Shown here in pieces: positions 15,905 through 62,945 of a stretch of 64,000 bases of DNA. Below the pieces are notes generated by a model. It saw only the letters and a list, made by a program, of their open reading frames with translations, did not search any database and had not been told where the DNA came from. The stretch's first letter is position 1. Every line of letters starts with the position of its first letter. The position numbers and the translations under genes were made by a program. Origin of the DNA: Wolfiporia cocos (Eukaryota; Basidiomycota; Agaricomycetes; Polyporales; Phaeolaceae); the NCBI GenBank assembly GCA_029448655.1, contig JACCLO010000007.1, positions 1,922,001 to 1,986,000 of the forward strand. Direction: 5' to 3'.

Positions 15905-16490
15905 TTCAGTGACAGTAGATGACGGTTCAGGTCAACCGGCTTGTACCAACCCCTAACGGTTCAGGTCAGCCGGTTGTCGGCCCATGCCCTAACCGTTAGG
16001 CCTACTGTCAGGTGGGCCCATGTCTTCTGTGACCAGATGGTAGTGACGGTCGCGGATGGGCCCACCACTGCCGTGACCAGACGATTATGATGGTTGCGAG
16101 TGGGCCCACAAATGCTGCAATCAGAAAGTTGTGACGGTCATAGGTCGGCCTACAACTTGACGGTTGTGACGGTTGTGGGTGGGCCCACCACTGCCATGAC
16201 CGGACGGTAGCGACGGTCACGGGTCGGCCCACAACTTCCGCGACCAGACGGTTATGACAGTCACAGGTGGGCCCATGACTGCCACAACCTGACAGTTGTG
16301 ACAGTTGTGGGTCGGCCCATGACTGCCATAACCAGACAATTATGATGGTCATGGGTGGGCCCATGACTGCCACAACTTGATGGTTGTGACAGCTGCGGGT
16401 GGGCCCACCAGCGCCGCAACCAGATGGGTGTTGCTGGTATGACGGTTGTGGGTGGGACCATGACCACTGCAATCTGACAGTTGTGGGCAC
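15905..16490. repeat. Left inverted minisatellite array (44-bp unit)
   Basis: The outer ~115 bases (15905-16020) are the reverse complement, with few changes, of 62825-62945. Inward follow about ten degenerate 44-bp units around GTGGGCCCA/GTCGGCCCA. The right array at 61605-62840 has the same unit inverted. Together they look like the long terminal or subterminal inverted repeats of one large DNA transposon. Confidence 0.75.
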
Positions 16491-17226
16491 TGGTAGAAGC
16501 CAACAATGGGATTGTGTGGCGGGCATTTGAGATTGTGCCATGGACTTGCCAGCTTTCTTCCTGGGGGGGGCCTGTATCTGTACAAGGGCTTATCTCTGTA
16601 TGGAAGCCAACCATATTTTCCCTTCCAGTTGGTTGTCATCATCTGTATTGGTAATCCAGTAGTCAATATTGCAGCTGTCAAAGCAGAACACCTCTTGCTC
16701 ATCTGGACAGTCATTCAAGACCTCAGATCATGTTGTACTTGGCCCTTCATTATTTGCAACACTGTCCTGCTTATTTATTTTCCTCTTTGGTTTTCCTGGG
16801 AAGCAGCACTCCAGCATGGGCCCCTTACCTTGCTCCAGATCATTTTCTGAGAACCTACTTGGGTGCATTGCATTCATGCCAGGAATTACATAGGCATTCA
16901 CATGAAATGCAGTCAAGTGATATGGTTCCTTGAGGTATCCATTTGTTAGCAAGTGCACACAGAGCCACTCTGTGTCCTGTGGTTGTCCCATCATAATATC
17001 CAGTAATGTAAGAATTTCAGCAGCATTAATACAGTGCACTCACCTCCTTTAACAGGTCCACCTTGCCACCAGCAATGGTGTTGAGGTCTGCACAATCACA
17101 GTATGCCATGAGTGCTTCTGTCAAAATGCAAAGGAAACATGCATATAAAGTATGAAATGGTGGATCACACATCACAGGACACCCTTGTTGATTCCAAAGC
17201 CACATGCTAGCAAGGATCATTAGCAC
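16490..17226 (-). other. Possible gene remnant, minus strand
   Basis: Minus frames at about 17026-17226 and 16728-17039 are separated by a plausible intron (GTGAGTGCAC to CCACAG) and read as ordinary mixed-composition protein, for example DTEWLCVHLL. I do not recognise the family and cannot define a start. The piece may be a truncated passenger gene of the large transposon. 17227-17532 holds nothing I can support. Confidence 0.3.
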
Positions 17227-17532
17227 AAGTGCATCTCATGCACCAGTGTGTCTATCTACTTGTGGTTTCACAGACAACTTTGAGGTCTCCCCTGCTCCAT
17301 TTCTTGTACAAGGCCTCCTTGTGACTTTCTCTGATGACAGAGTGGTACATGCCAGTCTTCATTCTGTGCTCACTCATGAGGTTCAGCTCTTGAGCAACTG
17401 TCTCTGCATCCTGCCATCAGACTTGGGGATCTCCCTCATGGCTACTGATCACAGAGACAGACAAAGCAATATTCCATTTAGTTTGTTATTCACACATCCA
17501 AGACTATATAGTACATCTACAAGCCCTCTACT

Positions 17533-18912
17533 CTACTTGCTCTTCCACAGCCTGCTGCGAACCGAGTTGTAATAGGAGGAGGAGGAGACATCAGTCATAT
17601 GATACAGATTGTCAACATTTCCCTGCACTCTGTCCAGAAGGCTGCATCCAGCAGCTTCTTCATCTGGATGATTGATGAGAATTATCCAGGGAAATTTGCA
17701 GAAATAACTCACCAGACTCAGCCGCAAAGCGGACACGTTTAATGCCCGATTTCGAGGTACCTTGTATATCGTCACCATCCAAGTCCATGGACGAATCAAC
17801 AGCCCATCTGTTCCGCTTTGGTGTTTTGCGAGGCTGGCGCAATGCAGATTTTCTGGCTACTGGAACTGCCACAACAGCCGAAGGGGTCATGGGGGTTGCG
17901 AATGGCAGGGCAGGGGTGGTTGTGGTTGAGCTCGTGGGTGGCAGGGACTCTGGGTCGAAGTTCCAGGATGGATAGCGTTTTCTCGGAGCGGGAGTCGCGT
18001 TGGTGGCGGATGGCGTGGTCGCGGTCGCGGCGGTTGTGGGTCGCGGGGTCGCGATGGTCGCGGTGGTCGCGTTTGAGGTCGCGGATGGCACGGTCGCGGG
18101 CGTGGCGGTTGTGGTAGAGGCCGTAGGTAGCAAGATGTCCGGTGTGAAACTCCAGGACGGATAGCGCTTTTTCGGAGCGGGAGTCGCATTGGTGGTGGAT
18201 GGCGTGGTCGCGGTCGCGGTGGTCGCGGTCGCGGTGGTCGCGGTCGCGGTGGTCGCGGTCGCGGTGGTCGCGGTCGCGGTGGTCGCGGTCGCGGTGGTCG
18301 CGGTCGCGGTGGTCGCGGTCGCGGTGGTCGCGGTCGCGGTGGTCACATTTGAAGTCGCGGATGGCGCGGTCGCAGGCGTCGTGGTTGTGGCGGAGGCTGT
18401 AGGTAACAATATATCTGGCATAAATCCCCAGGACGGATATCGCTTCCTCGGAGTGGGACTTGCGGGGGTCACAGATGGCGCGGTCGCGGTGGTCGCAGGT
18501 CGCGAGGTCGCGAGGGTCGCGGATCGCGATGTCGCGACGGTTGCGGGTCGCGAGGTCACGTCGGTCGCATTTGAGGTCGCAGGTAGCAGGGGGTCTGGAT
18601 TGAATTTCCATGCCGGATATCGTAGCTTTTGAGCTGACACCTGAATAGCAGGCTCACTCTTGCTCTCCTCTGGTTCTGGTTGCCCTTCTATACATACAGG
18701 AGTTAAATGTAAAATATATCAAGCAAAATAAAAGCTGTACCATCCTGCATTTGAATATCTTCATCTCCTTGAAGTTCTTGAGTCTGTTGTGTGAGTGAAG
18801 ACCCTTCTTCCAGTGGGGAGTCCCGCACTGCACTGGTACGGAAGTGCGTAAATGCGATAGGCATTGGATAAGCGGGAACAGGGGAGGGACTGAGGGGTTT
18901 TGATTGGTTCAT
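17533..18912 (-). CDS. Hypothetical protein with four KRYPSW-type repeats
   Basis: A three-exon model fits in phase: 18912-18741, 18687-17713 and 17663-17533, with GT-AG introns, giving about 425 residues. An in-frame ATG at 18990 is an alternative start that would add a hydrophobic stretch. The protein repeats a block (K)RYPxWxFxPDxLLPT four times, separated by Ala/Thr low-complexity linkers. The longest linker is a perfect 15-bp DNA repeat encoding ATATT. A basic, nuclear-looking tail (KTPKRNRW) follows. No family recognised. It is transcribed divergently from the Zn2Cys6 gene at 19264. Confidence 0.65.
17995..18350. repeat. GGTCGCGGTCGCGGT (15-bp) array in exon
   Basis: Near-perfect 15-bp units at about 18196-18345, with degenerate copies to the left, inside exon 2 of the minus-strand KRYPSW protein gene. 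Confidence 0.9.
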
Positions 18913-19263
18913 GTGGGGGCGCGGGCAGGCGAGAAAAATCAAACTCGCAGTAACGAGTTGAAAAAGATATAATAGATGCGGGTAGCTCATAGAACAACAG
19001 AAGTCCAGAAGCAGACCGTGGGAATAGACTTAATCACGTGCACGCTGGATGCGGCGGCAATCAGCGCAATGTGCCGAAATAGAAATCAGGCGCTTCCGGT
19101 CCGCGGACCGGCGCCGGGCTGTAGCATGAGGCTGCGAAGACTTATATGAACAGGTCGCGAGCTGCGGTCGCGACCCCTCAAGCTCAGACTCTCCCCGCGC
19201 TGCTGCTCTCCTGCTCGCACTCCCAATTGCGCTTGCACTCCACCTGTAACTTTTGCTCTCATC

Positions 19264-22196
19264 ATGTCTGAACTCTTTGAACAGGCCGACGTCCTCATCG
19301 CCCGCGCGATCGCCGCAATCAGGGCAGCCCCCGAGAGTCTGGAGGGCGGTGACTATACTGAGTGGCAGATGAAGATGATGGCTGAGATGGTGAGTAATTT
19401 TTTTTTTCCACTCAACTCAAGGAGTTTTAACTAGGATATCTCAGTCAAACACCGTCAAGGTGTTCCCGTACGAGGCCATTAAGCAGGGGTACAGGCTACC
19501 CATTCTCTATGCCAGTATACTGGCAGAATACGAATTCGTCAATGAGAAAGAAGATGAAGAGTTCAACTCCATTCGCGTCGAGGAAACGGATCAGAGGATT
19601 AGGACTCACCCCAAAATCGCTCCAATAGTGGATGACGCCAAACCCCTCCCAGTGGTGGAAGACCTAGGACCCGACCAGTGGTGGGTCACAGGTATGTACT
19701 CATTCAAATCCTTTGCAAGTCTACATTTATTGAGTATACTTACAGGAGAATCTAATGAGGGCAGGCCGACTGCCCCGCGCACCCAAAAGAAAAGGCCCCG
19801 TGAGGATTTCGAGAAGGACAGCACGGATTCGGAAGACAACGAGGAGGAGGAGAACAGTCAGGAAGATGGGGAGGTAATCGAGGAGGAGGACGAACGTCGA
19901 GGAAGGAGCGAGGGTCGTAAGGGACGCAAGAGTCGCGAGACGGGTCGTGAGACGGGTCGCGAGACGGGTCGCGAGACGGGTCACGAGACGGGTCGCGAGA
20001 CGGGTCGCGAGACGGGTCGCGAGGGTAGCGAGAGTAGTGACGAAGGTCGCGAGGGTCGCGCCGAACGTCGCAAGGGTCGCGCCAAATCTCGCAGCGCCAC
20101 CACATCGACCGGTGTCACGACTCGCACACGGTCAAAGTCTGCCGAAAAAAGGCCGTCAAAAGTCAGGCGGACTGGCAGCAAGTCATCGGCGACTGCGCGA
20201 CCGTCGCCAAGCTCGAACTCGGCCAGCCCTCCCCCCTCTCGCAAAGGCCGTTCAAAACTGACCAAGGGGCGGAAGGCATCAAAGGGTGCTCAAGTCAAAG
20301 CAACTAAACCAAGGCCCAAGCCATCGGATCATCCGCTTCGCTCCGTAAGCTTTTAATTTGTTTGCAGACATAGCGCTGACCTCCTTTTTTGTCAGGCACT
20401 AACATGTTCCAACTGCAGACGTATTGGAACCGTCTGCACTATCGATGTCGAAATTCGGACGAGGTGCTCGAGGTGCTCGGGCAACAGCCTCGCCTGCAAC
20501 TTGGTGCCCAAGGAGCTGAACAGCAAGGGAGAATACGAGTCCACGAAAGGGGCGAGGTCATTAAAGCTGGCACGTATGTTTCAGAAGAAGTTCGACAGTC
20601 CCGCCAGACAAGCACCCAAATTGGAGAAGCTCAAACTTGTCGTCTACAACCCCAACACCAAGAAATTCATTATCGATGACACCACTCGGTACACTGAGGA
20701 GGAGCTTGCAGACTTCCCAGTCAAAGGTGAGTCAAAGTCTTATCATTTTTGATTATGTACTGATTATATTTTTGGGGGGTTCTCAAACAGGCTCAAAGAG
20801 CAAGGGAAAGAAGCATGCAAGTGAGGTAGACAGTGACTTAGAGGAAGATGAGCAGGATCAGTTGGACGAGGATGAGGAGGTGAGATCTGGTGGGGCAGAG
20901 ACTGACGCGTCGGTTGTCAAGGCTTTCCGGAACCTCAGGCATGACGACAACATAGAGACGGGTGATGAGGAGGAAGCGGGCCCTTCTGCTGGCCCCTCGA
21001 CCACAAGACACGATGGCAAGGGAAAAGAGGTGTCCCGACGGTCGACGAGGTTGGCTGAGCGTGAGCATCGTGAGACCTCACAAGCAAGTGTCCATGTTCA
21101 GGCAGAGCAGCCATCAGGTGAGCAAAAAAAAATCTTGATCACTCTATTCTAATAAATAGCCTTCACATATCTATATATAGCGGACAAGGAGGGCGGGTAC
21201 AATCGCTACCGCAGCCAGGTGGGGGATGACCGGGACGAGCTGTTGAAGGCGGTCACTCAAATGAGTGGCATGCTTAATCAGCTCGTCCATAAGGTGGACA
21301 TCCTCCAAGAGACCGTCCATGAGATGCAGGTGGGGCAGGTGGGGCTGCAGGCGCAGCTTGAGGCCCTGCGACAGGTAGCGCTGGGGGTGCCTCTCGTGAC
21401 CTCCGCGACCGTGGCCCCCGTGACTCTCGCGACCCCGCCTGAGGCCTCTCTCTCGGCCTCTGGAACCCTGCCTCTTGCAGCCTCCGCGACCATGGCCGCT
21501 GCACCTCTCGCAACCTCCGCAACCGTGGACCCCGTGACTCTCACGACCCCGCCTGAGGCCCCTCTCTCGACCTCCGGGACCCTGCCTCTCGTGGCCTCTG
21601 CTGAGGGGCCTCTCGCGACCTCCGTGACCGCGGCCCCCGCGACTCTCGTGACCTCCGCAACTGTGGCCCCCGCGACCTCCGCGACCCCACCTGAGACACC
21701 TCTCTCGACCTCCGCGACCGCGACCCCTGCGCCTGTCGCGACCTCCGCGACCTCGCCTGTCGCGACCTCCGCGACCTCGCCTGTCGCGACCTCCGCGATC
21801 TCGCCTGTCACGACCTCTGCGACCGTGGCCCCCGCGACTCTCACGACCCTGCCTGAGGCCGCTCTCTCGACCTCCGGGACCCTGCCTCTCGTGGCCTCTG
21901 CTGAGGGGCCTCTCGCGACCTCCGTGACCGCGGCCCCCGCGACTCTCGTGACCTCCGCAACTGTGGCCCCCACGACCTCCGCGACCGCAGCCCCCGCGAC
22001 CTCCGTGATCCCGCCTGAGGTGCCTCTCACGACCTCTGTGACCGCAGCCCCCACGACCTCTGCAATCCTGCCTGAAGCGCCTCTTGCGACCTCCGCAACC
22101 ATGGCCCCTGCAACTCTCGCGACCGATGCAACCACAATCAATGAGCCCGCGGATATTGATGAGCCCATGGATATGGATACAGATGGGTCTGACTGA
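19264..22196 (+). CDS. Zn2Cys6 (fungal binuclear cluster) protein
   Basis: A six-exon model is in phase throughout: 19264-19389, 19445-19691, 19746-20344, 20396-20726, 20791-21117, 21181-22196, giving about 881 residues. Residues 328-358 read C-X2-C-X6-C-X9-C-X2-C-X6-C, the fungal Zn2Cys6 DNA-binding pattern. It is unusually central rather than N-terminal, after a Lys/Arg/Ser-rich region with tandem RETG repeats. An acidic stretch and a probable coiled coil (start of exon 6) follow, then a long Ala/Ser/Thr/Pro tail made by CGCGACCTC repeats. It is likely a nuclear DNA-binding protein; the target is unknown. Divergent from the gene at 17533-18912, and lies inside the proposed large transposon. 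Confidence 0.82.
19927..20085. repeat. GACGGGTCGCGA (12-bp) array in exon
   Basis: Seven to eight tandem units in exon 3 of the Zn2Cys6 gene, encoding RETG. Confidence 0.9.
21390..22130. repeat. CGCGACCTC-rich degenerate repeats in exon
   Basis: Encodes the Ala/Ser/Thr/Pro tail of the Zn2Cys6 protein. A longer internal duplication relates about 21535-21680 and 21835-21980. Confidence 0.85.
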
Positions 22197-23520
22197 GTGG
22201 TTCTGGTTGGCTTTCATTTGTATCACTACTTGTTGTTCATGCAAATGTATGAGAAATATATGAGTCTTTCATTGCTTTATTATGAGATGAAAAGCCACTT
22301 GGAACCATTCAAGAGAATAAACTGGAATGTAAAGCAACAGGTTTTGCTTCATCTTGGAATTATGTAAAGCCAATGACATTTCAGGGCCAGCAGCTGCTGC
22401 AGGCACAGCAGTCATGCAGGCCATAGCCACGTTGGGCATGTACAGTTAGGGACAAGCAAACACAGTAGATTTGATACCAGGCGAATGCAAGTTTTTAGTG
22501 TCACACCAATACCATAAATAGACTCAGAAGGTATGAAAACCTCTAAATAAACCACTTTTGAGATTTTACCCACAAATATGAGCTGTGCCTAAATTTTGGG
22601 CAGATTTCACTGGGTGTTTCACAGGCAATTTTAGGGCATCTCACGAGCACTTGTGGGCATCTGTATTCGGAGATGCCAACATATGGCACCAGAGCTATCA
22701 CAATCACAATTCCAACTCAATTAAGCAGATTTTTGAATTTGCAGGGGCAATCCCATCAGCTCGCAAAGGCATTGTGTACAGCAACACTGTATCATGAAAA
22801 GAGTAAGCAATGGATGAGATGGAACCCAAGATCAAAGCTCAAAGCTGACCCTGGACTCCTGTAGCAGTTTCCAATGGTGCAGCCAAGTACATTTTGACAT
22901 GCTACCAATGTTGCAACCTTTGGTAAACACTTTTGGATGTTTTGGATGGTTATACAAGTGTCAGCTTGTATCACTGCTCTATGTGAGCATGATTTTCTAT
23001 GCCCAGTTATTTTAACATCACAGGCATTCCAAAAGAGAGCTATCAGACAGTCATGACCACATGTCACAATGTAAGCTCAGAGTGCTCGTACCCACTCATG
23101 CCAACTGAGTTGGTGTTTTGCCCTTGGGGCATAGCAGTTACTGCATCATGGCTGTATTATGATGAGTTTTGTGACAGTGTGTGGTACTTGTGTAGCATGT
23201 TTTCTCAATCTCTATTGCACTTCAGGAATCCAATCCTCATCCTCTTCTGCCATAAATATCATGGACAAAATCTCATTTCCAAAGTCCTCTCAGTCTGACT
23301 TGTCTCATGATTCAGACCCTCAGAGTGCAAGCTCTGAGAAACAACCTGGGTTTAGGCTGTCAAGATGGAGGTGAGAATCTCCCTCACATCCAGAATCAGA
23401 GTCCTGCACAGGTTGCAAGGGGCTCTATACTTGATCCTCAAGCCAGGTCAGTTACTTTCATGCTTCTGAGGTTACATTACAGAATGGCAAAGATGTTAAG
23501 GATGAAACATGACAAACTTC
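22197..23520. other. No gene seen
   Basis: AT-richer sequence with only short open frames; no domain or consistent splice model found. Confidence 0.4.
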
Positions 23521-23639: not shown

Positions 23640-24000
23640 ACTGTGGTCACAGCAGCTGTGGTGGTTGTGAATGTGGCGGTCACAGAGGTTGCAATTGCAA
23701 AGGTTGTGAGAGGTGCAGGGGGCACGGTCGCGGAGGTCACGAGAAGTGCGGGGACTGCGGTCGCGGAGGTCGCAAAGGTCGTGGTCGCAGAGGTCGCAAA
23801 GGTCACGGAAGTTGCGGTTGTGACAGTCACGAAAGTCGTGAACGTCGCGGTCGCGGAGGTCGCGAACGTCGCGGTCGCGGAGGTCGCGAACGTCGCGGTC
23901 GCGGAGGTCGCGAACATCGTGGTCGCGGAGGTCGCGAACATCGCGGTCGCAAACGTCGCGAACGTTGTGAGAGTCGTGGTCGCGGAGGTCGGGGTGGCTG
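23640..24000. repeat. GGTCGCGAACGTCGC (24-bp) array
   Basis: The 24-bp unit is clearest at about 23845-23960. The downstream sequence CTGATTGCATATGTCAAGGTCA resembles the module after the arrays at 395 and 60190. Long frames on both strands are repeat products. Confidence 0.85.
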
Positions 24001-24186: not shown

Positions 24187-26255
24187 TCAGCGAGGTGATG
24201 GGGACTTTGCAGTGTCCGATCTGGTAGCATGCTTGACACGCCTGTGGGTTGCCTGCCGTTTCGGTGCTGGCTCGACTTCACCTTTCATCCGCATCACATC
24301 CCTCTGACGTTTGGCCCCAAGTTGTGCTGTAGATATGCTGCCTCCTTCCCCTCCACCCGAGCCTTCTTCCTGAGCATCACCATCTCCAGATCCATCTCCA
24401 ACCCTACCTGCCCCCTCAACAACCTCTGCCCTAGCATCTGTGACATCTCCTTCAACTTCTACAATGCCCTCAACATCTGTGTGAGCCCTGGTGTCAGTGG
24501 TCACCAAGGCCCCTACCATTCCAGTTGCATCTGAATTTTGTTCAATGACCTGACCTCTGCCCTCATCATCAGATGAGAAATCCCACAGGGATTGGAACTC
24601 TGGATTCTGCCACAATGGGGCCAGAACAGACTTCCCATCAAGCAATCTGATCATGACAGACACCAGCATGTCCAAAGCTCCAATGGAAATGCCTTCGGGG
24701 TTAGAATCCATCGTAATCTGGCTGTCGATGAGGTATTGAGGCGCCCCTTCCCTAGGGACATCTGGCTCGACCCAAACAAATTGAGCATCCTCCATCTCCC
24801 GGTAGAGGATGCCGATCGTCAATACGATGCGCTGGATCAATGCCTTGTCAGAAGTCAACTTGCATTCATCGTCCTTCATGGGCTGATCATGTCGAAGCCA
24901 GTAGGCAACTTCGTCAAGTCCAGAGGGACCATGAATGTCAGCCCTTCTGTGATGCTCCCAGGTCCAGGATGCCCAATGAGGACCATCTTCATCTTTGCTG
25001 AAAAGTACCTGGCTTCCCTGAACACCAAGGGTCAGTGGTGGGAGACAATCAAGGAGGACATTCATACGATGAGCTCAGAGCACTTCACCACCATGGTCTT
25101 GTATGATTCCCCAGTGCCAAGAGCAAGGAGATAGTTTTGTCGGCGGGTTGGACTCATGAGAGCCCACACTGGAGGGAGATGACGGATATTTTCGGGATTG
25201 TCGCTTTGGTCGGTGGCACCCCAATTGTCGACCCAGTCAGTGATGGTGATGCGTGCACGACCTTTTCCCTTTCCTGACAATGTGAGAGGCTCAGATTGTG
25301 TCCATTGGTGAGGACGATTCATGGCCATGTTGGGGTCACTGTCACTTGAGGCATTGACATCTTCGTTGGACTTGTCTTGGCCACCGCAATCTTCCCCGCG
25401 ACCTCCGCGACCTCCGCGACCTCCGCGACCTCCGCGACCTCCGCGACCTCCGCGACCTCCGCGACCTCCGCGACCTCCGCGACCTCCGCGACCTCCGCGA
25501 CCTCCGCGACCTCCGCGACCTCCGCGACCTCCGCGACCTCCGCGACCTCCGCGACCTCCGCGACCTCCGCGACCTCCGCGACCTCCGCGACCTCCGCGAC
25601 CTCCGCGACCTCCGCGACCTCCGCGACCTCCGCGACTGCTGCGGCCACGAGTTTCGCGACCTACTTCATTTTTGGCAAGGCCACCGTCCATCTGCTCATC
25701 ATCATTTTCACTCCTTCTCAGTGCCTGTGTCCCACTGACAGAAGGTCCTCCAGCTGCCATGCTGCTTCCAGGTCCAGCCTCATCAATCTCGACATATTCT
25801 TTGGTCTGGGGCTTCTTTGCTGGGGGCACACTACTCGGTAGGTTCCTGTAGATGGCATTGCGGAGCTCATGCTTCGGATTGTTCCTGTAGGCGGTTGTGT
25901 ATTTCTTGAATCGGAAGAGGACCGCACCGCTCCTGCCACTCTTGGCATCCTCCCAGTGCTGTAGGATGGCAATGCAGTCCTCCTTTCTCATGTGATGTGG
26001 CTCGGCAAGGGAAATACCGTGCGGCATCATGGCATCGTCAAAGAAGCTCTCAGGCTCACTTGCCATCAAGCCCCAGGGACAGGCACGGTCAGATGCTCCA
26101 CAGGCCAGCTCTATTTGCAGCTCAGCAATCTAATTATAACTTTATGAGGAGGACCCACTCACAGTAATGTCTGTTAAGGAACAATCTGATAATTTGCCGC
26201 ATTCTAGCTAGACGGAGCCGCTTTCTTGGATTATACGGAGGCAAGATTGGCAATC
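24187..26255 (-). CDS. RGG-repeat hypothetical protein, 3' part (gene split by Gypsy B)
   Basis: Continuation of the gene starting at 40054. After the insertion site the frame reads from 26255 through a short exon (PILPPYNPRK), then a long exon to about 25065 and a last exon to 24187. The middle exon holds about 27 copies of a 9-bp unit encoding GGR (25395-25640), an RGG-box-like tract typical of RNA binding. It then continues to a conserved-looking ITDWVDNW segment. The last exon (from GSQVLF) is acidic and ends in a basic tail. I could not fix the splice between the short and long exons without a stop, so that junction is uncertain. Family unknown. Confidence 0.55.
25395..25640. repeat. CGACCTCCG (9-bp) array, about 27 copies
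   Basis: Nearly perfect tandem nonamers in an exon of the RGG-repeat gene. Confidence 0.95.
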
Positions 26256-26859
26256 TGTCACGGTTTCTCTTATTTTTCTCCTATTTTTCCCTATTTTCTC
26301 TGATTTTCTACAGCTCGTTCTACTCGCTTTCCGTATCACGTTATGTCTCACCCTTATCTCACTCTCGTAGATAACTCTTATCTTATCTCTTGTGCACGTT
26401 AGCTCAGCGCCTATCACGGCGCCTCGTCTTATCTGTAGACACATCTTATCTTTCCTGCACGTGACCCTACAAAGAGTTCACAACATACGTTGCCACACGT
26501 CACATGGTTTTCTAGTGACTCGCGTCACCTGCCGCTGGCTCACGCTCAGTCAGCGGCCTAACTCACGTCACATGCTGTAGCCTTATGCTCAGTCAGCGAC
26601 CTTTGGAACTATCACAAGCTTCGGGTCGTACCATTACCGGTACATAACCCTACGCCCTGCGGTATCACTAGTCTTACCTACGGTGTTACGGGTCTTACCC
26701 TCCATGTATATAAGCTGGTCTCTGAGTACGTTGTAGACTCAGAATAGTTCTCCTCGACAATCGACTAGTTGTTCTTACCAACTGCTTGACTCTGATACCT
26801 CACCTTTATCGACACCGCCCCTCAAAACCTTTATTCAGTTTTAGTGAGTGTCTGCGTCA
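26256..26859 (+). repeat. 5' LTR, family B
   Basis: TGTCACGGTTTCTC...CTGCGTCA, 604 bp. TATATAAG near 26706 is followed by a CTGAGT...ACTCAG hairpin and the self-primer AGAATAGTTCT at 26741-26751. Confidence 0.94.
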
Positions 26860-26861
26860 TT

Positions 26862-26872
26862 AGAACTATTCT
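26862..26872 (+). promoter_or_regulatory. Primer-binding site, self-priming type (family B)
   Basis: AGAACTATTCT is the exact reverse complement of 26741-26751. Confidence 0.8.
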
Positions 26873-27472
26873 TTTCATCGCCCCCCGGCCTTTTGGCCCT
26901 GGGGATTTGTGTTTCTAGGCCGGCGGTTTGGTGTCTATCCCTTTACAGGTACTTTTGTATTGGGATCTGGGGGATACATGGCAACGACCAGCCATTCAAT
27001 AGGTTATTAGCGGCACCTGCAAAGGGCCGTTAATGTGAACGGCGGCGGTGGATTAGACATGGGCGATGCCCCAGACCTATCCCCGTTACTTAGTAACACG
27101 TTTATTGTCCAGACGTAAGGACACAGCCTCGTTCCTTCGGGAACCAGACTAAAACCCGGCTTGCCGGCCTAATGACCACATGGGATTGAACCTTAACGGG
27201 ATCTCCCGGTCACCGCTTCTCAGCGGCGGCTAGCTTGCCTGCGGTGGACGTTTGGGAGCGCTGCGGCTAGCCACCATGGGTGTAATACCCTAATCTGGCC
27301 TGTTACCGGGACCGCAAGGGAAGCGGGACCCGTTGTATCTTCCACTCCGGACGTGTATGAGAGAAATGCACGCCGTCGTCGACACACCGACATGACACCT
27401 TACCGCATCAAGAACGGCCGTTCCCGGATTTTTTATAGTTGTAGTACAGCTTTCTCACGTAGTTACACAGCC

Positions 27473-28375: not shown

Positions 28376-28568
28376 AACCCTTGCAGACCACCTGAGAAGG
28401 GGTCTTGCTTTATCGCTTCTTATCGTGTGACTTCAAGCTCGCGCTCAAGAAAGGCACAATACATGGCAGTAGATAATTTTAGTAATTACGTATTTTTTGC
28501 CTCGGTTCTCCTCCTTTTACAGGCATTCCCGCGCTTTTTGCAAGCAAGTGCTTACCAGGTTTTTAGCA

Positions 28569-41915: not shown

Positions 41916-42230
41916 AGGTCGCAGAGGGAGGTCACGGAGATCGCGGAGGTCGCGAAATGAGGCCGCGAGGATCGCGAAGGTTGCGGTCGCGAAGGTTGCG
42001 GTGGCCGCGGTGGTCGCGGTGGTCGCGGAAGGAGGTCGCGGTGGTCGCGAGGGTCACGAAACAAGGTCGTGAGGGTCGCGGGTGGCAGTCGCGGGGCTGC
42101 AGCAGTCGCGGTGGCCGCGGTGGTCGCGGTGGTCGCGGTGGTCGCGGAAGGAGGTCGCGGTGGTCGCGAGGGTCGTGAAACAGGGTCGTGAGGGTCGCGG
42201 GCGGCAGTCGCGGGGGTCGTGGAGATCCAT
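41890..42230. repeat. GGTCGCG-rich array between TET/JBP and KDZ genes
   Basis: Degenerate GGTCGCGGT/GGTCGCGAGG units with an internal duplication of about 115 bp (41995-42075 resembles 42110-42195). Confidence 0.85.
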
Positions 42231-49981: not shown

Positions 49982-49983
49982 TA

Positions 49984-49994
49984 AGAACAAATCT
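49984..49994 (+). promoter_or_regulatory. Primer-binding site, self-priming type (copy 2)
   Basis: AGAACAAATCT, reverse complement of 49849-49859 near the expected transcript start. Confidence 0.82.
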
Positions 49995-51925: not shown

Positions 51926-52071
51926 TAGAAATACTATCATCTTTTAACTCTGAAATAGAGTGCGAGTGTGATCTATAACGGAAGTTGCAGCTTTCAAAAC
52001 CCAATCCCTTCTTAAAAGAATCTAAGACAATGAGTAACCGGAAACTAACATTCGTCACAAACAGATTCACA

Positions 52072-54069: not shown

Positions 54070-57000
54070 AGAACACACCAGCCCCGCAGCGGCTGGGAGT
54101 GTACAGCGCCCCGAAGAAGCGCACCTCTACGAAGAGGCTTCACAGAGACCCCTTATCTTGTGGGAAGATAAGGCGGTCGTACGTCACCCGGTATCCCATC
54201 TCGGTATATTCGGCAACTCGGCAATGGACTTTGCCCGGAGGACAAGGACACTAGCTACACGTGCCCCTCCTGTAAAATACTTTTATCCTGACCCGCTCGC
54301 GTCGAAGTTTTTCACTTTGTATAATGTACATGGAAACGATTCTCGAGACGACAATAAATCGTTCTCTATCGAAGTGGAACTGTGGGTATATGGAAAGAAA
54401 GTCAACGCCATGGCATTAATCGACACCGGTGCATCCATAAGCGTCATCGATAAGAAACTCGTACACGAGGAGAAGTTAGTCACTCAGAAACTACCTTCGC
54501 CTCTCGAGATTCGCAACGCCGACGGTACCTCTAATACCGCCGGTAATATCAATATGGCAGTAAAAGCTTATATGGTGCACGAGGAACACAAGTCCACCGA
54601 ATTCTTGTACGTAATGGACGTACAGAATGCGGATGTGATCCTCGGATATGACTGGTTCCTGAAACACAACCCGGACTTCAATTGGCCGGAAGGAACCTTC
54701 ACATATCGGTGTACGGAAAAATGCAAACATGGCAAACGGGTCTCGATTTCTGAGGAAGAAGACGAAATCGAACCCCGCAACATCTATCAGATCATCAACG
54801 ACTTTCCAATAGATTTTCTCGGCTTAGAGGAGCCTGAGAATCCCTTTGTCGCTTGGGTGAACACCCTTGACGAGGGAACGGAACTCCTTATCGATGCCAT
54901 TCAGTCGATAACGGAGAAGTCGGACGATGAATTCCTGACAGATGCGGATCTCCAGAAATGGAAATCCTTGGTTCCGGAGGAATACCAGGAGTTTGGTCCC
55001 ACGGTATTTTCTCAACGCGCATCCGAAAGGATGCCCGAACGGAAACCATACGACCACGCCATCGACTTCCCCGATGACGCGGTACTACCGCCCCCGAGTA
55101 AGGCATACAAGATGTCTCCTCAGGAAGCGAACTCGCTAGATCAGTGGATTCAGGAAGAGTTACGGAAGGGCTACATCCGACACTCAAAATCCCCGATCGC
55201 GAGCCCGGTCTTCTTCGTCCCTAAAAAAGACGGTGGAGCCCGAATGGTAGTCGATTACCGAAAAGTAAACGACTTGACCATTAAAAACAGGTACCCTCTC
55301 CCACGCATAGACGAGCTTATCGATAAGCTTAGCCAGGCTTCGATATTTACGAAGCTCGACTTGCGTTGGGGTTACAACAACGTAAGAATCAAGGAGGGAG
55401 ATGAATGGAAAACCGCATTCATTACGCCTAACGGCCTTTACGAAGCTGTAGTCATGTACTTCGGTTTTTGTAATGCACCCAGCACGTTCCAACACATGAT
55501 GAACGATATCCTAGGTGACCTTATCAGAGAAGGAAAGGTCATTGTCTACCTAGACGACATCCTTGTGTTCGGAAACGACCTGTTGGAACACCGTCGTATT
55601 GTCAAGCAAGTATTACAAATCTTGCAAGACAACGACTTGTTCGCAAAGCCTGAAAAGTGCTTCTTCGAACAAAGCAGTATTGAATACCTGGGAATGATCA
55701 TTTCCAAAGGAAAAGTCGAAATGGACCCTAAGAAGGTAGCCGGCGTAATGGACTGGCCTACACCTGCCAAGGTGAAGGACGTCCAGGCCTTTGTTGGCTT
55801 CGCCAACTACTACCGTCGGTTCATTAAAGATTTCTCCAAAGTGGTTAAGCCGTTAACCGAGCTGTCCAAGAAAAACACGCAATGGAACTGGGGACCCGAA
55901 CAAGCGGAAGCCTTCCAAACTCTTAAGGAAGCTTTCACATCGGCTCCAATACTCCGGATCCCAGATCAGGAGTCCCCGTTCCGCGTGGAAGCGGATTCTT
56001 CCGATTACGCAACTGGTGCAGTGCTATCGCAATACTCTTCGGAGGATAAGCTCTGGCACCCGGTAGCCTTTTACTCGAAATCTCTATCAGCACCCGAAAG
56101 GAACTATGAGATTTACGATAAGGAGTTGCTCGCAATCATCCGTGCACTAGAGGAATGGAGACATTACCTCGAAGGACACCCACACAAATTTGAAGTATGG
56201 TCGGATCATCTCAATCTGACATATTTCAAATCGGCACAACGGCTAACCCGGAGACAGGCACGTTGGAGTCTTTACCTGACAAGGTTCAACTTCACCATGT
56301 GTCACAAACCCGGTAAAACAATGCTCACGGCTGATCCTCTGTCACGGAGGCCAGACCATGAAGAGGGGGTGGAACTCGACAATCGCGATCAAATTTTGCT
56401 GAAACCGGAATACTTTACGGTTAGGGCGCTAGAAGCGTCACAGCAGGAGATACAATCAGGCGACGAGGACCTTCTACGACAAATCCGACAAGCCCTCATG
56501 GACGATCAAATTACCAAAGATTACCAGGAACTACTGAAAAGTGGTCCCAAGGAATTCGGTAAAGATCTCCAGGAATGGAACATGGAGGCCGGATTACTCC
56601 TCAGACGAGGAAAAGTGTACGTTCCAAAAGAGCCTAAGGAATTGCGCACGAAGATCCTGGAGTTACATCATGACCATGTGACTGCCGGACACTTCGGACG
56701 ATGGAAGACCTATGAACTTCTATCACGCAATTACTGGTGGCCTGGAATGACCACGATGGTAAAGCAATACGTGGAAGGTTGTGACACATGTCAACGCATG
56801 AAGAACCACAACCAGACCCCGTACGGACCCCTGCAACCGCTCCCAGTTCCGGAAGCACCTTGGGACACCGTCACAATTGACCTTATCGTCCACCTACCGC
56901 CCAGCGGCGAATTGAAACAATTCAATGCTATTATGGTAATAGTGGACCGGCTTACCAAACGAGCACACTTCATTCCCACGTCAGACAAGATAACGGCAAA

Positions 57001-58546
57001 AGAATTAGCGAACCTCCTGTACCTTCGGATTTATCCGAACCACGGACTTCCGAAACAAATCATTTCGGATAGAGGGCCGCAATTCGCAGCCGCCTTATTC
57101 AAGGGATGGTGTGAGCAATTGGGAATCCAACGGTCAATGACAACCGCCTATCACCCGCAAGCGGATGGCCAGACGGAGAGAGTTAACCAGATCCTGGAAC
57201 AATATCTTAGATGTTACATCGATGTTATTCAAAAGGATAACTGGTCATGGTTTCTCCCAACGGCTGAATTCGCGTACAACAACGCGGCTAGTGAGACAAC
57301 AAAGAATAGCCCATTCTTTGTCGAACTAGGAAGGCACCCTAATGCAGGACCTACGAATTTACGTCCAACACCATACACGGACCTAAATGTCATTGCTTAC
57401 GAACGATGGTCAGCACAAGAACAAGCTAAGGCAGCAATAAAACTGGCTGCTGAACGCTGGTCTTGGTACTACGATCAACATAAACGCTCGGTACCGTTTA
57501 AAGTCGGCGACAAAGTTCTCGTTGACGCCCGAAGCTGGCAAGACTCCGAAAGAAGTCTTAGTCCACGCTATTTGGGACCATTTAGGATAATTGAACAATT
57601 ATCTCCGGTCACCTTTAGGGTACACATGGACGAGCAATACAGGGCTTACCACCCAGTATTCCACGCTTCCAAGTTGGTCATGTACAAGGACCCGGTGCAT
57701 CAGAAAAAACCAGAGCCTCAACCAGAAATGGTCGACGGCGAGGAGTTATGGGAAGTCGAAAAGATCTTAGATCATCGTCTCCGCGCAGGAAGAGTTGAAT
57801 ACAGAATCCGTTGGAAGGGATTCGGTATCAATGACGACTCCTGGGTACGCGAAGCGGATCTCGACTCGGCATACGACATTTTGCAGGAATACAAGGCTTC
57901 ACACCCTATTCCAATGCAGGATGTCCCCCTCAGGCGATCAGCTAGAAGGAAAGAAGCAGTTCATGTCTTCGACCCTGACAGCGACGACTGGGAAGCCGAC
58001 GAATGCACGTGGCCAGACGACTGGCCGCAGTATCGCGAAGAATTTGCGAAGGATCCTAAGCAACGCATGGTTAGACACCCCGACGGGGGATGGATGTCAG
58101 CGGACATTAACCAAAACGCGGATTTGAAAATCGTAGTCGGTGAAGGCGGCCGAATGCCGGAAAAAGGAACCAAGGACTCGGTTGGGTTTGACCTGTACAC
58201 TGCAACAGGCGATGTTCTGCCAGCTCACGGGCAGACAGAATACAACACCAAACTGAAAATCCAGGTACCTTTCGGCACTTACGGACGTATCGCCCCCCGC
58301 TCTAGTCTCGCACGCAAAGGCATAGACGTAATGGGTGGCGTTATCGACCACGATTATCAAGGCGAAGTAATCATCATTCTCCGGAATCACTCCGACATAT
58401 CTATCGATATTCGGGCCGGCGATAAGATTGCCCAGCTAATCTGCGAAGTTGCAAAGGACCCACATATTACGCTACACGGAAAATCTTACTTTGAAAAGAT
58501 TAAATCCGAGCGCGGTACTGGTGGATTCGGCTCCACAGGAAAGTAA
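54011..58546 (+). CDS. pol, family A copy 2: PR-RT-RH-IN-chromodomain-dUTPase
   Basis: 1511 codons from an ATG at 54011, though expression by frameshift from gag is more likely. The frame is +1 relative to gag, and CTG TGA AGA at the gag stop is a candidate site. Protease DTGA at residues 138-141. RT YLDD at 513-516. RNase H ends before the integrase finger (HHDH...CDTCQ). Integrase catalytic D957, D1020 and E1056 (35 residues between the last two). Chromodomain about 1246-1295 (WEVEKIL...RIRWKGF). A trimeric-type dUTPase follows at about 1385-1511 with SVGFDLY, PRSSLA, GVIDHDYQGEV, GDKIAQL and RGTGGFGSTG. Every catalytic residue I can check is present. Confidence 0.95.
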   Translation: MSGPSRCPSPQLHVSKTFCEEHTSPAAAGSVQRPEEAHLYEEASQRPLILWEDKAVVRHPVSHLGIFGNSAMDFARRTRTLATRAPPVKYFYPDPLASKFFTLYNVHGNDSRDDNKSFSIEVELWVYGKKVNAMALIDTGASISVIDKKLVHEEKLVTQKLPSPLEIRNADGTSNTAGNINMAVKAYMVHEEHKSTEFLYVMDVQNADVILGYDWFLKHNPDFNWPEGTFTYRCTEKCKHGKRVSISEEEDEIEPRNIYQIINDFPIDFLGLEEPENPFVAWVNTLDEGTELLIDAIQSITEKSDDEFLTDADLQKWKSLVPEEYQEFGPTVFSQRASERMPERKPYDHAIDFPDDAVLPPPSKAYKMSPQEANSLDQWIQEELRKGYIRHSKSPIASPVFFVPKKDGGARMVVDYRKVNDLTIKNRYPLPRIDELIDKLSQASIFTKLDLRWGYNNVRIKEGDEWKTAFITPNGLYEAVVMYFGFCNAPSTFQHMMNDILGDLIREGKVIVYLDDILVFGNDLLEHRRIVKQVLQILQDNDLFAKPEKCFFEQSSIEYLGMIISKGKVEMDPKKVAGVMDWPTPAKVKDVQAFVGFANYYRRFIKDFSKVVKPLTELSKKNTQWNWGPEQAEAFQTLKEAFTSAPILRIPDQESPFRVEADSSDYATGAVLSQYSSEDKLWHPVAFYSKSLSAPERNYEIYDKELLAIIRALEEWRHYLEGHPHKFEVWSDHLNLTYFKSAQRLTRRQARWSLYLTRFNFTMCHKPGKTMLTADPLSRRPDHEEGVELDNRDQILLKPEYFTVRALEASQQEIQSGDEDLLRQIRQALMDDQITKDYQELLKSGPKEFGKDLQEWNMEAGLLLRRGKVYVPKEPKELRTKILELHHDHVTAGHFGRWKTYELLSRNYWWPGMTTMVKQYVEGCDTCQRMKNHNQTPYGPLQPLPVPEAPWDTVTIDLIVHLPPSGELKQFNAIMVIVDRLTKRAHFIPTSDKITAKELANLLYLRIYPNHGLPKQIISDRGPQFAAALFKGWCEQLGIQRSMTTAYHPQADGQTERVNQILEQYLRCYIDVIQKDNWSWFLPTAEFAYNNAASETTKNSPFFVELGRHPNAGPTNLRPTPYTDLNVIAYERWSAQEQAKAAIKLAAERWSWYYDQHKRSVPFKVGDKVLVDARSWQDSERSLSPRYLGPFRIIEQLSPVTFRVHMDEQYRAYHPVFHASKLVMYKDPVHQKKPEPQPEMVDGEELWEVEKILDHRLRAGRVEYRIRWKGFGINDDSWVREADLDSAYDILQEYKASHPIPMQDVPLRRSARRKEAVHVFDPDSDDWEADECTWPDDWPQYREEFAKDPKQRMVRHPDGGWMSADINQNADLKIVVGEGGRMPEKGTKDSVGFDLYTATGDVLPAHGQTEYNTKLKIQVPFGTYGRIAPRSSLARKGIDVMGGVIDHDYQGEVIIILRNHSDISIDIRAGDKIAQLICEVAKDPHITLHGKSYFEKIKSERGTGGFGSTGK

Positions 58547-58585
58547 TCGTTCCATTAGGGACAATGAAACCTGAAGAGGGGGTAA

Positions 58586-59284
58586 TGTCACAGATTTGGG
58601 ACATGCCACTATTTTTCCCGTATTTTTACCTATTTATCTGGTATTTCTACGACCTTGTAGACATTTACGCTGCTAAGCGCCCGTCTACACGTACACGTAA
58701 CCAAACAACACGTACACAACGCGGTATACGTCCACTTGTCATAACAACACGTACATAACACGTTTGTACGCATCAATGACTCAGCGGACTAACCTCCGGT
58801 GTCACGCGCCTTACTCATATCCCGATACTGGGCTATGTCAGTACAATTGGATAAGCGGCCCGCTTGTTATCACATGCCAATGCCTTTACGATTACTCATA
58901 TCCCGATGCCGGTATATAAGAATCACATGCATGGCTTACTAACGTAGCTACAGCCACTTCCACAACATGGACCTACGGTCCAAACAAACGATCTTACTGG
59001 TGCGGCCATTACCGACGCACATGGTCTATTGTAGTTTACGACTTAGCTGTATTAGTTATGTCTGCGCACAGACCGTCTTCATGTTTGGCTCCCTTACTGG
59101 TAACCAAACAATGCATGTATATAAGTAGGGCTATCACTGCGGATAAGCCTTAGATTTGTTCTCTGCATTCGCACAGTTACATACCATCTCTGCTTGCGCC
59201 CACTAGCCTCCTCACCAACCTTCTACAACATCTTCAAGTCGCCTATAAGGTTATAGAGTGAGTCCCACAGTCTAGTCTGTGTCA
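58586..59284 (+). repeat. 3' LTR, family A copy 2
   Basis: 699 bp, preceded by GAAGAGGGGGTAA (polypurine tract). Appears identical to the 5' LTR. Confidence 0.96.
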
Positions 59285-59514: not shown

Positions 59515-59640
59515 AGCAGCTACAGAGGTCGCGGAGGTTGCGGGGGTCACGGAGGTCACGGAAGTCGCGGAGGTCGCGGAGGTCGCGGAGGTCGCGGAGG
59601 TCGCGGAGGTAGTGAAGGTTGTGGAGGTGGTGGTCTCAAT
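59515..59640. repeat. GGTCGCGGA (9-bp) array
   Basis: About ten nonamers downstream of the split 173-residue gene. A minus frame through it (Thr/Ser/Ala) ends near a GTAAGT donor at about 59712, so it could border an exon of an unknown minus-strand gene. Confidence 0.85.
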
Positions 59641-59852: not shown

Positions 59853-60269
59853 CGCGGTGGAACGAGCTAATGCGAAAGTGTTTGTGAGTTTGCAGAAAAA
59901 TCTCTCGAGCGACAGGCTAGATCCCTACATCGTTTGAAGCGCAGAAGCTAGGCAAACGGCTGCAGGACGAGAAGACCTACTATACCTCAGCAAGGCATAA
60001 CGTGCGTTCGTTCAAACCAAGTCCGAGTCATATGTCACAGCTAAGAATACTATATATACGTTATCGGACTGCCAGAGGTAATATTTCCTGTCAGAACAGT
60101 TGCAGTGGTTGTGGCAGCTGCGGTGGTCGCGGTCGCGGTGGTCGCGGTCGCGGTGGTCGCGGTCGCGGTGGTCGCGGCGGTAGCGAAGGTCGCAGTGACT
60201 GATCGCAGATGTCAAGGTCATCCTTTCAAGTAATGTCTGCAGCCCAGATCCCCAGTTGGCCATTATTTT
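59853..60269. repeat. Duplicated segment, copy at 1-467
   Basis: The uninterrupted copy. It continues into TGAACAATGC where copy 1 of family A is inserted in the other copy. Contains a short GGTCGCGGT array at 60110-60190. Confidence 0.8.
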
Positions 60270-60270
60270 T

Positions 60271-61604
60271 GAACAATGCATTCACCCTTCCTTTGACAGT
60301 AGCCGTCACTGGCAACGGTAATGACGGTGAAGGTGACATAGACATTGGATGGCTTGTCAAAGAAATATGTGATCTTACGGAGGGAGGTAGGCCACGCGTT
60401 ACACTTCAAAAGAGCAGTGTAGTGCTAAAGCACACAAAGCATGGGAAATTGAACTGCATAAATGGCTGGACCCAACATGATACCCAAGCTGTCATTGTAG
60501 CCCTTTTGGAGGAGTGGCTAAAGCACCATTCATTGGCACATCACATTGGGTCTGTGGCATGCCCCGTGATATGGCCAGGCATGCTGTGCATGGATGTAGA
60601 TATTTTTGTGGCCAAGTTTGTTCTGGTTGTACCTGTACATGAGAAAGAGCCTTTTGCAGTTGGATGTTTTATTTGTGCAGCATTTCTAGTATGCCACTTA
60701 CATAGGCTTGCTGTTTCTGTCTCGATCCTGTCTACAATGAGCATAACCACTGAATTTCATACTGCATTGCTCCATTCCAGATCTTCCTGTGTAAGCTCGC
60801 TTTGGAGCATTCTCAGAGCAATTGCTGTAGCCTCTGTGCACTGGTCCGTTGCAGGTAATGAAGCAATAAAACATTGGTAGTGTGCTGTGTGTGGATGCAG
60901 ATATTTCTGCTGCCAAATTGGTTCTGAACAAGATCCAGCCTTTGAAAGAACACCAACGGATCAATTTGAAGTTTCCCAGTGGCATCGGTGATGAAATGCA
61001 CGCTGAAGTTGAGTATCCTCCACAGCTTCACTCAAAGTAACTGATTAATCTCGGTGTCCTCACCTTCCTCATTATCATCCATGTATGGCCACACAAGGCC
61101 CAAAGTCCTGTACATGCATGGATTCTGGAATTCTGTGTTGACAGTCATGAGACAAGCAATGTCTATGAGTTGCTGGCTGTACCATTCATGGATGGAGAAA
61201 TTGGACAGTGTCCTAACAGGCATATCTTCTGCACCATCTCCTTTGGTGTCCCTGGCCACTAATGGTCTTGCCCAATACCATGAGGGAGTTGTCTTCTATG
61301 GCTTCCTTGATGATATCCCTGGCATCTGGTAGATGTGTTGGGATACCTGATACACATAAATTAAGAACTCACCATGGATGCATGTATCTGTACACTCCAC
61401 ATGAAGCATGATTGTGGCAATCCCAAGTCTTGAGGCTGTTTGGAATGGAACTTCTGAAGCTGTGGAATCTGTGACTGATGCATCAAACAATACAAGAATA
61501 ATACAGGTCATCACTCTTTTGCCAGCTCTCATCAACAAACCATCACCATGTCCCTTCCCGTAGTTGACATTGTCATCGACTATGAAGGGGAAATCGCAGC
61601 ATTG
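60271..61604 (-). pseudogene. Coding-like remnants, unrecognised
   Basis: Several minus frames (61538-61357, 61259-61032, 61031-60813, 60750-60541) read like ordinary protein, for example HEWYSQQLIDIACLMT, but are joined only through frame changes. A plus frame 60209-60880 is also open. A degraded minus-strand gene with introns is my best reading; family unknown. Confidence 0.35.
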
Positions 61605-62945
61605 GTGGGCCCACCCACAACCATTGGGTCATGGTGACTGTGGGCTGACCAGTGACCATCACAACTGTCTGGTCGCGGAAGTGGTGGGCCGACCCGCAAC
61701 CGTCACGATCGTTTGGTCACGGCATTGGTGGGCCGACCCATGACCGTCATGACCATGGAGTCGCAATGGTTGTGGGCCGACCCGCAACCGTCGCAACTGT
61801 CTGGTCGCGGAAGTGGTGGGCCGACCCGCGACCGTCATGACCGTCAAGTCGCAATGGTTGTGGGCCGACCCGCAACCGTCGCAACTGTCTGGTCGCGGAA
61901 GTGGTGGGCCGACCCGCGACCGTCATGACCGTCAAGTCGCAATGGTTGTGGGCCGACCCGCAACCGTCGCAACTGTCTGGTCGCGGAAGTGGTGGCCGAC
62001 CAGCGACCGTCATGACCGTCAAGTCGCAATGGTTGTGGGCCGACCGGCAACCGTCACAACCATCCGGTCGCAGCAGTCGTGGGCCGACCCGCGACCGTTA
62101 CAACCATCCAGTCGTGATGGTCATGGGCCGACCCATGACTGCCACAACTGTCTGGTCGCGGAAGTCGTGGGCCGACCCGCAACCGTCACGATCGTTTGGT
62201 CACGGCATTGGTGGGCCGACCCGCGACCGTCATGACCGTGGAGTCGCAATGGTTGTGGGCCGACCCGCAACCGTCGCAACTGTCTGGTCGTGGTTGTCGT
62301 GGGCCGACCCGCAACCGTCACAACCATCCGGTCACAGCAGTCGTGGGCCGACCCGCGACCGTCACAACCATCCAGTCATGATGGTCATGGGCCGACCCAC
62401 TACTGTCACAACTGTCTGGTCGCGGAAGTCGTGGGCCGACCCGCGACCGTCATAACCGCCCGGTCGCGGCAGTCATGGGTCGACCCGCGACCGTCATAAC
62501 TGTCTGGTCGCGGAAGTGGTGGGCCGACCCGCGACCGTCATGACCGTCAAGTCGCAATGGTTGTGGGCCGACCGGCAACCGTCACAACCATCCGGTTGCA
62601 GCAGTCGTGGGCCGACCCGCGACCGTTACAACCATCCAGTCGTGATGGTCATGGGCCGACCCATGACTGCCACAACTGTCTGGTCGCGGTTGTCGTGGGC
62701 CGACCCGCGACCGTCACAACCGTCCAGTCATGGAAGTCATGGGCTGACCCGCAACCGTCACAACCATCCGGTCGCAGCAGTCGTGGGCCGACCCGTGACC
62801 GTCATGACCGTCTGGTCATGGAAGACATGGGCCCACCCGATGGTAGGCCTGACAGTTAAGGCATGGGCCGACGACCGGCTGACCTGAACCGTTAGGGGTT
62901 GGTACAAGCCGGTTGACCTGAACCGTCACCTACCGTCGCTGAATG
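61605..62945. repeat. Right inverted minisatellite array (44-bp unit)
   Basis: About 27 units of 44 bp centred on GTGGGCCGACCCGCGACC, with an 88-bp higher-order repeat at about 61800-62000. The outer 120 bases (62825-62945) mirror 15905-16020. Frames on both strands are repeat artefacts. Confidence 0.85.

Follow-up and report, generated by a model that had tools for sequence, protein, structure and literature searches.

A KDZ transposon family of about 24 kb in Wolfiporia cocos, with inverted terminal arrays, a TET/JBP gene and a possible address for its product

A stretch of 64,000 nucleotides from the polypore Wolfiporia cocos (contig JACCLO010000007.1, positions 1,922,001 to 1,986,000; hereafter the window) holds a KDZ transposase gene, a gene for a TET/JBP-like dioxygenase and several further genes between two inverted arrays of 44-bp repeats, and raises the question of whether all of this is one mobile element and, if so, what use such an element would have for a TET enzyme. 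An earlier note on the same DNA had proposed a single KDZ-type transposon with inverted 44-bp arrays, and exact ends, target duplications and a gene block that recurs elsewhere in the genome bear this out. We consider it probable that the region is one copy, broken by three later insertions of long terminal repeat (LTR) elements, of a transposon family of about 24 kb that makes 7-bp target duplications, likely moved by a predicted transposase working on the inverted ends with their arrays; a self-addressed form of anti-silencing, involving the TET enzyme and a short motif, GGTCGCGG, is proposed with it. The question to which this speaks is what a transposon could gain from a demethylase that acts freely, if the whole genome is not to be unsilenced.

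Ends, copies and insertion sites

The genome searched comprises 64.43 Mb in 76 contigs, with the window at C67:1922001-1986000; coordinates given without a contig are window positions, and copies are named by contig (C75, C76, C12, C8 and so on), the one at 15898-62950 being the window copy. Compared with itself, the window pairs 15905-16424 with 62943-62415 in inverted orientation, and tandem arrays of a 44-bp unit lie at 16032-16431 (plus strand, in the form of the lineage termed A below) and 61640-62839 (minus strand, about 27 units). Five arrays, taken from three copies, have a self-match of 0.62-0.73 at a lag of 44, where the median for lags 20-99 is 0.25-0.27. The inverted recurrence of outer bases and arrays, already described in the earlier note, is confirmed, its limits moving outward by 7 bases on each side, to 15898 and 62950. 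Alignment of the ends gives a terminal inverted repeat of 124 bp with 110 identities (left 15898-16021, plus strand; right 62827-62950, minus strand), and on both sides its outer limit is also the point at which homology to uninterrupted relatives stops. After subtraction of the three LTR insertions (with the end of the smallest of them, T4, set at 46283) the window copy measures 22,581 bp, in agreement with the earlier estimate of about 22.6 kb after removal of Gypsy B, T4 and Gypsy A copy 2.

The outermost bases are 5'-CACACCTTTCAG on the left and, reading inward, 5'-GAGCCCATTCAG on the right, as in 51 of 52 ends read genome-wide. The outermost 7 bases, mostly unlike between the two kinds of end, are CACACCT in 27 ends and GAGCCCA (inward reading) in 24, with TTCAG directly inside, and CATACCT in one; they lay outside every query used to find ends. 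Ends were located with an internal 19-base motif, which has 133 genome matches when 3 mismatches are allowed (the reversed pattern has 5), many of the 133 being a second, similar box within the same terminal repeat. Beyond the outermost bases the flanks differ among ends, duplicated loci excepted. The apparent conservation of a core within the 44-bp unit, GGGCC[GC]ACC, is in part a product of the anchor and is set aside as evidence.

Rather than arrays strewn alone at no fixed spacing, the genome holds 15 pairs of facing left and right ends on single contigs, 23.4-25.5 kb apart in seven cases, and four of the 15 have exact 7-bp target duplications: CGGCCAT on C75 (copy of 24,709 bp), GTCCAAC on C76 (25,422 bp), GGTAAGT on C12 (24,008 bp) and ATGGTTG on C8 (23,834 bp), the copies on C75 and C12 being confirmed by reading. 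Across contigs, the 7 bases CTCGAGG flank a left end on C17 and recur beside the right ends of C11 and C23. Among 525 left-by-right combinations of ends, 7-bp flank matches number 6 where 0.03 would be expected; ends without a read partner are also present. Uninterrupted relatives in which the 7 bases occur just once were found at three of the four sites searched (C76, C75 and C8) and run through the insertion junctions at 96-98% identity (four alignments), while for the joined flanks of the C12 insertion no uninterrupted relative was found in the genome. The right gene block (gene 2, TET and KDZ) is present near full length and at 98-100% identity in at least 11 places, the window included, a lower bound given that the best 30 of 169 candidates were scored. 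Fixed outermost bases, 7-bp duplications at five insertions, empty sites and further copies with the same gene set, all of which the earlier note could at best anticipate, are thereby in hand, and for a KDZ element of 24 kb exact termini and target duplications are now supplied.

The repeats are therefore products of precise insertion with 7-bp target duplications, the exact ends, the duplications and the single-copy relatives together arguing for insertion and not for segmental duplication. The notion that they are segmental or subtelomeric duplications draws what strength it has from ends with flanks in common. At C11:453667, C23:5097772 and C4:2858409 the right ends have a common flank of 1.39 kb or more, 99.3-99.6% identical, and flank of at least that length is also shared between C1 and C20, between C8 and C27 (left ends) and between C7 and C41. 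Set against it are 46 distinct 60-base flanks (25 left and 21 right, a few of them near-identical), in addition to the exact ends, duplications and uninterrupted relatives; for the five insertions with 7-bp duplications it is refuted by these, and for the family as a whole it seems to us extremely improbable. The shared flanks themselves have a simpler reading, in that the loci with about 1.4 kb of common flank were probably duplicated after insertion, and at C11, C23 and C4 exchange or duplication through the element is likely; the left flanks of C11 and C23 differ despite their common right flank.

Two side observations concern the arrangement of copies. At C4:2825097-2851769 two right blocks of equal length and score stand in opposite orientation, an apparent inverted duplication of the transposon, and a pair of ends only 13.3 kb apart occurs on C45, outside the 15.

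The window copy lacks a target duplication, and here the earlier note was right in its observation; the weakening of the case that it drew from this is answered by the target. Both flanks of the window copy match one repeat family, and in three uninterrupted relatives (on C75, C1 and C34) the two sit 321 bp apart, homology stopping exactly between 15897 and 15898 and between 62950 and 62951. The copy therefore sits in a single target from which 321 bp are missing, which accounts for the missing duplication. Most likely its own ends were the site of an aberrant event, at its origin or later, in which this piece of target was lost; intact ends beside a deletion would be the expected remnant of an aberrant second event there, and loss through an accident of host repair during insertion is possible. 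Ectopic exchange had been entertained as the cause and was replaced by the target deletion.

Lineages and gene content

The window and C75 copies are 98-99.7% identical up to about 60,160, one piece of 394 bp (95%) excepted, and 92-96% identical in the repeat-rich right end. C12 matches the window copy at 93-99.7% in its right two thirds, and its right gene block matches that of C75 at 97-99%; its left 8.7 kb have a different form, with the same two genes in opposite orientation and mostly 40-65% protein identity. This difference had made the window copy a candidate recombinant or chimera, an idea dropped when C75 proved to have the same structure. C75 has a target duplication as well as the structure of the window copy, so that the left modules are marks of two lineages, A (window, C75) and B (C12). 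Counting the window, form A is whole or nearly so in at least four places; for form B the number is at least 14, both being lower bounds from the best 40 of 160 candidates.

What the left module is for bears on a further alternative, namely that the working part of the element consists of the ends and the right two thirds (gene 2, TET and KDZ), with the left module as exchangeable cargo. The near-identity of the right block between lineages, set beside left modules that are inverted and much diverged in protein sequence, is what such an arrangement would leave. Retention of the same two left genes in both lineages suggests a kept function, as does that of all six cysteines of one of them, the C6 gene, in lineage B at 40% amino acid identity; we regard mere cargo as possible and on the unlikely side.

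Domains were assigned by a Pfam profile scan of 19 window reading frames at Pfam's own cut-offs, and exon borders and introns by eye from GT-AG, some KDZ exons falling outside the 15 placed exons. The transposase gene (42782-48014, minus strand), interrupted by T4, has its CxC2 exon at 47313-48014 and its KDZ exon at 43986-44378, with others between, and both domains score above cut-off (PF18803, CxC2, E 2.6e-29; PF18758, KDZ, E 3e-32). The transposase has 831 database relatives, the best of which carries both the KDZ and the CxC2 domain; the best relatives of the C12 protein come from Wolfiporia cocos and are 75% identical over 71% and 92% identical over 34% of the query. Among 120 relatives listed, three (P0003, P0059 and P0119) have a TET domain in the same predicted protein as the transposase.

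The TET/JBP dioxygenase gene (40584-41912, plus strand; exons 40584-40787, 40871-41065 and 41364-41912) also scores above cut-off (PF12851, E 1.1e-13), as the earlier assignment of both enzymes would have it. The best solved relative of the C12 protein is CcTet of Coprinopsis (7vpn/8jkk, E about 4e-17). In CcTet numbering an AG type is marked, in the available part of the account concerned (PMC12730594), by the metal ligands HxD with Gly or Ser at 331 and Asp at 337, and the element's protein has HRD together with Ser and Asp at the matching positions (HRDSKSRMQWYD vs HRDTSGPIEGMD), the AG-type pattern.

Gene 2 (24190-40054, minus strand) encodes a large protein, is interrupted by Gypsy B and has six placed exon spans, open in three copies, at 39509-40054, 39126-39221, 38872-39090, 25665-26108, 25068-25376 and 24190-25017. 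Database searches found no relatives for it at E 0.001, and none for residues 1-270 at E 0.01. The RGG-repeat protein that the earlier note listed as a gene of its own is in fact a tract of GGTCGCGG repeats (25396-25636, minus strand) open in frame within gene 2.

In the left module, a gene with repeated units of the YPxWxFxPxxLLP type forms an open frame at 17660-18640 (minus strand), with no Pfam match above cut-off; its C75 counterpart is 41% identical to the lineage B form over 303 columns. The other gene, of several exons (19150-22193, plus strand), has at 20357-20749 a C-x2-C-x6-C-x9-C-x2-C-x6-C cluster. The earlier call of a Zn2Cys6 protein is retained for the six-cysteine pattern and not for the family, and the gene is styled here C6, Zn2Cys6-like.

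Apart from TET exon 2 of C75, the 15 placed exons, which belong to KDZ, TET and gene 2, are free of stops in the C12, C75 and window copies, and the ratio of non-synonymous to synonymous change (pN/pS) is 0.14-0.42 in seven of nine comparisons of these genes among the three. The C75 exception is due to a 2.58-kb insertion (TGACAC..GTGACA, element position 12219-14799) in a copy that is otherwise complete. As KDZ and gene 2 are both interrupted in it, the window copy is very likely inactive; copies with every placed exon open exist elsewhere in the genome.

The interrupting elements are later insertions and not part of the transposon. Gypsy B (26256-38871, plus strand) has LTRs that are 99.7% identical and a 5-bp duplication, CAATC; T4 (44430-46275, plus strand) is a small LTR element, TGTCAC..GTGACA, with a 5-bp duplication, GTTCC, read by eye; and Gypsy A copy 2 (49283-59284, plus strand) has LTRs that are 100% identical and the duplication ATGCT. 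T4 looks non-autonomous, part of it resembling window 5795-6941 at 74%. Inside Gypsy B are direct-repeat pairs at 30301-31841 (501 bp, 100%) and 33886-35671 (504 bp, 99.8%), which look like small nested LTR elements, and the C-terminal ends of both Gypsy polyproteins (35856-38186 and 54011-58546) appear by eye to be dUTPase-like after the chromodomain. At the edge of the window, positions 1-470 are a fragment of another copy of the KDZ transposon, matching 22204-22645 of the C75 copy and containing five GGTCGCGG motifs, which Gypsy A copy 1 truncates at about 468.

The GGTCGCGG motif and a candidate address

The commonest 8-mer of both C12 and C75 is GGTCGCGG (complement CCGCGACC), with 138 copies in the former and 101 in the latter, these being the extremes among the elements examined; the 36.9 kb of LTR elements in the window have two. 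In the window copy there are 136, two of them within Gypsy B, gathered in 13 clusters with others scattered between. The clusters lie at 18017-18099, 18206-18339, 21670-21776, 23849-23985 and 25396-25628 in the left part, at 39382-39482, 40492-40542, 42012-42200 (+), 46483-46634 and 48115-48161 in the middle, and at 59527-59606, 60125-60177 and 62418-62536 on the right, and 12 of the 13 have the motif in a single orientation. A longer form of the motif, with one mismatch allowed, has 714 genome matches, whereas its reversed control has none. Among the 100 of these listed (all exact, on C1-C11), every one falls in a copy of the element, 65 of them enclosed by a pair of ends and 35 on the inner side of a single end; the far border of single-ended copies is assumed, and two matches (C1:502692 and 502701) depend on an unread motif match at C1:499726. 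The motif looks private to the element.

None of the 136 copies in the window copy is within the 15 placed exons, and in the right part of C12 the core GTCGCG/CGCGAC is found 4 times within placed exons (5,439 bp) and 120 times outside them (8,684 bp). Open frames contain three left clusters and also the RGG tract, and non-coding is a fair description for about half of the motif copies of the window copy. Exact motifs are found in 9 of 28, 7 of 26 and 3 of 16 units of the right 44-bp arrays.

How these pieces might work together can be put as follows. The element likely moves by cut and paste: its predicted KDZ transposase would recognise the terminal 44-bp arrays and work on these together with the inverted repeats. 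The TET enzyme would strip the element of methyl marks, transposons being methylated in this host, and the GGTCGCGG arrays, by analogy with VANC proteins and the VANDAL transposons that encode them, could be the address at which a protein encoded by the element concentrates TET activity. The best candidate for reading this address is the left module's C6 protein, which diverges fast. In its full form the proposal is one of self-addressing epigenetic escape, whereby the CpG-rich motif, present throughout the element including introns and the right array, would be read by the lineage-diverging C6 protein, bringing with it the element's own TET so that the element alone is unsilenced; this is offered tentatively, as an idea to which we give a low probability.

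In Wolfiporia hoelen, which is almost certainly the host here, the methylome has already been measured, and in the available part of that report 5.78% of cytosines are methylated, 93% of methylated sites are at CG, and methylation stands at 15.09% in transposons and 1.28% in genes (PMC9503964). Within each terminal inverted repeat of the element, two CGG-N10-CCG boxes, 34 bases apart, start at positions 26 and 60 (on the left, 15923-15938 and 15957-15972). Their spacing fits a known type of site for Zn2Cys6 dimers; it was chosen post hoc and serves as a lead only.

A number of observations weigh against the overall picture, some touching the transposon and others its supposed address. Eleven of the 15 same-contig pairs, that of the window copy included, have no 7-bp duplication, and the target deletion is shown for the window copy alone, two other copies being uninformative and 10 of the 15 pairs unexplained. 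For KDZ, C75 against the window gives a pN/pS of 1.41 (12 changes), and for TET the same comparison has two non-synonymous and zero synonymous changes, the ratio being undefined. The C6 cluster fits the Zn2Cys6 pattern by eye and scores below the Pfam cut-off. As to the motif, 62 of the 136 window copies are in open frames and possibly coded (26 in the YPxW frame 17660-18640, 10 in 21156-22193 and 26 in 25065-26129, the RGG frame), a count that lowers our rating of self-addressing; 12 of the 120 core matches scored as outside exons in C12 fall in the RGG tract of gene 2 and are possibly coded as well; and exact motifs are rare in left 44-bp units (1 of 12 and 1 of 8). Lastly, observed/expected CpG is 0.74-0.79 in the element and 0.95-1.04 in the adjoining Gypsy elements, which suggests past methylation and decay, contrary to lasting protection.

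Several of these same points favour the plainer alternative that the element is a real KDZ transposon whose GGTCGCGG arrays are neutral minisatellites, which slippage has lengthened in introns, in spacers and in coding sequence of low complexity and which are copied along, with TET acting without an address. The motif copies in open frames and the low CpG would both be at home there, and array lengths vary between copies. What neutral growth explains less readily is that one 8-mer, not assorted repeats, dominates 13 clusters of differing unit length, that no placed exon of the window copy contains it, and that the exact motif turns up in part of the right 44-bp units; a neutral origin is a serious contender all the same, to which we give somewhat less than an even chance. 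Self-addressing, for its part, has the merit that exact ends, intact copies, a private-looking motif and lineages differing mainly in a candidate DNA-binding module make the question directly testable.

Relation to known systems

By domain the element is a KDZ transposon, having the KDZ domain and CxC cysteine cluster of that superfamily and, within the 7-8 bp expected of its members, precise ends with a 7-bp duplication at five insertions. It most resembles the TET-bearing Kyakuja-1_LB and Kyakuja-2_LB of Laccaria bicolor, which, as far as the available part of the source goes, also have a KDZ transposase, an AG-type TET/JBP protein, a 7-bp duplication and a left terminal CA (PMC12730594); of TET-bearing elements in Polyporales, the same part of that source reports only Kyakuja. 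Differences from the two Laccaria elements as described there are that their termini are 5'-CA..TG-3' whereas those here are CA..TC (right end ..GGGCTC-3'), and that they are without terminal inverted repeats (PMC12730594) whereas this element has one of 124 bp, 110 of them identical. It also adds the 44-bp arrays, the GGTCGCGG arrays and further genes to what is described for them. Because it has neither the CA..TG termini nor the absence of inverted repeats, it is not filed as Kyakuja, and is best called a Kyakuja look-alike by its duplication length and TET type.

KDZ1-3 of Cryptococcus neoformans share with it a CxC-bearing KDZ transposase and terminal inverted repeats (241, 139 and 169 bp); on the evidence of the portion of the report at hand they differ in size (about 11, 9.2 and 10 kb for KDZ1, KDZ2 and KDZ3), in being of the CxC1 type and in duplication length, given as 8 bp for KDZ1 and 4-8 bp for KDZ2 and KDZ3 (PMC12810828), against 7 bp here; neither a TET gene nor arrays are named for them in that portion. 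Among the titles and opening lines of abstracts listed by literature searches, none tells of a 24-kb KDZ element with such arrays, and Kojima's supplementary sequences may contain it. A size record is not claimed, because the Marasmius oreades library, in the available part of its description, reaches about 42 kb, element type unstated (PMC9674265). With Starships there is a likeness in that both are large fungal DNA elements with several genes; Starships, in such accounts as are available, use a tyrosine recombinase and belong to Pezizomycotina, whereas here the enzyme is a KDZ transposase and the host a basidiomycete, and none of the 19 window reading frames scanned against Pfam has a tyrosine-recombinase domain.

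Transposons of mushrooms that carry TET genes are already known, and what is new is the motif pattern in company with a TET gene and a diverging C6 module. For this combination the VANDAL elements of Arabidopsis serve as a working analogy, having likewise a dense, largely family-private short motif and a fast-diverging element gene (PMC5735166, PMC10398659). In the parts of these papers available, VANC targets are short motifs in tandem repeats, in non-coding parts, that change together with a variable protein (PMC5735166, PMC10398659). VANDALs are there described as plant elements of the MuDR type with mainly non-coding motifs (PMC5735166, PMC10398659), whereas close to half of those counted in the window fall in open frames. 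No relationship between the C6 protein and VANC is claimed, and unlike a VANDAL this element carries a TET-type enzyme of its own; if the self-addressing proposal is true, fungi would have their own equivalent of VANC, here travelling together with the demethylating enzyme.

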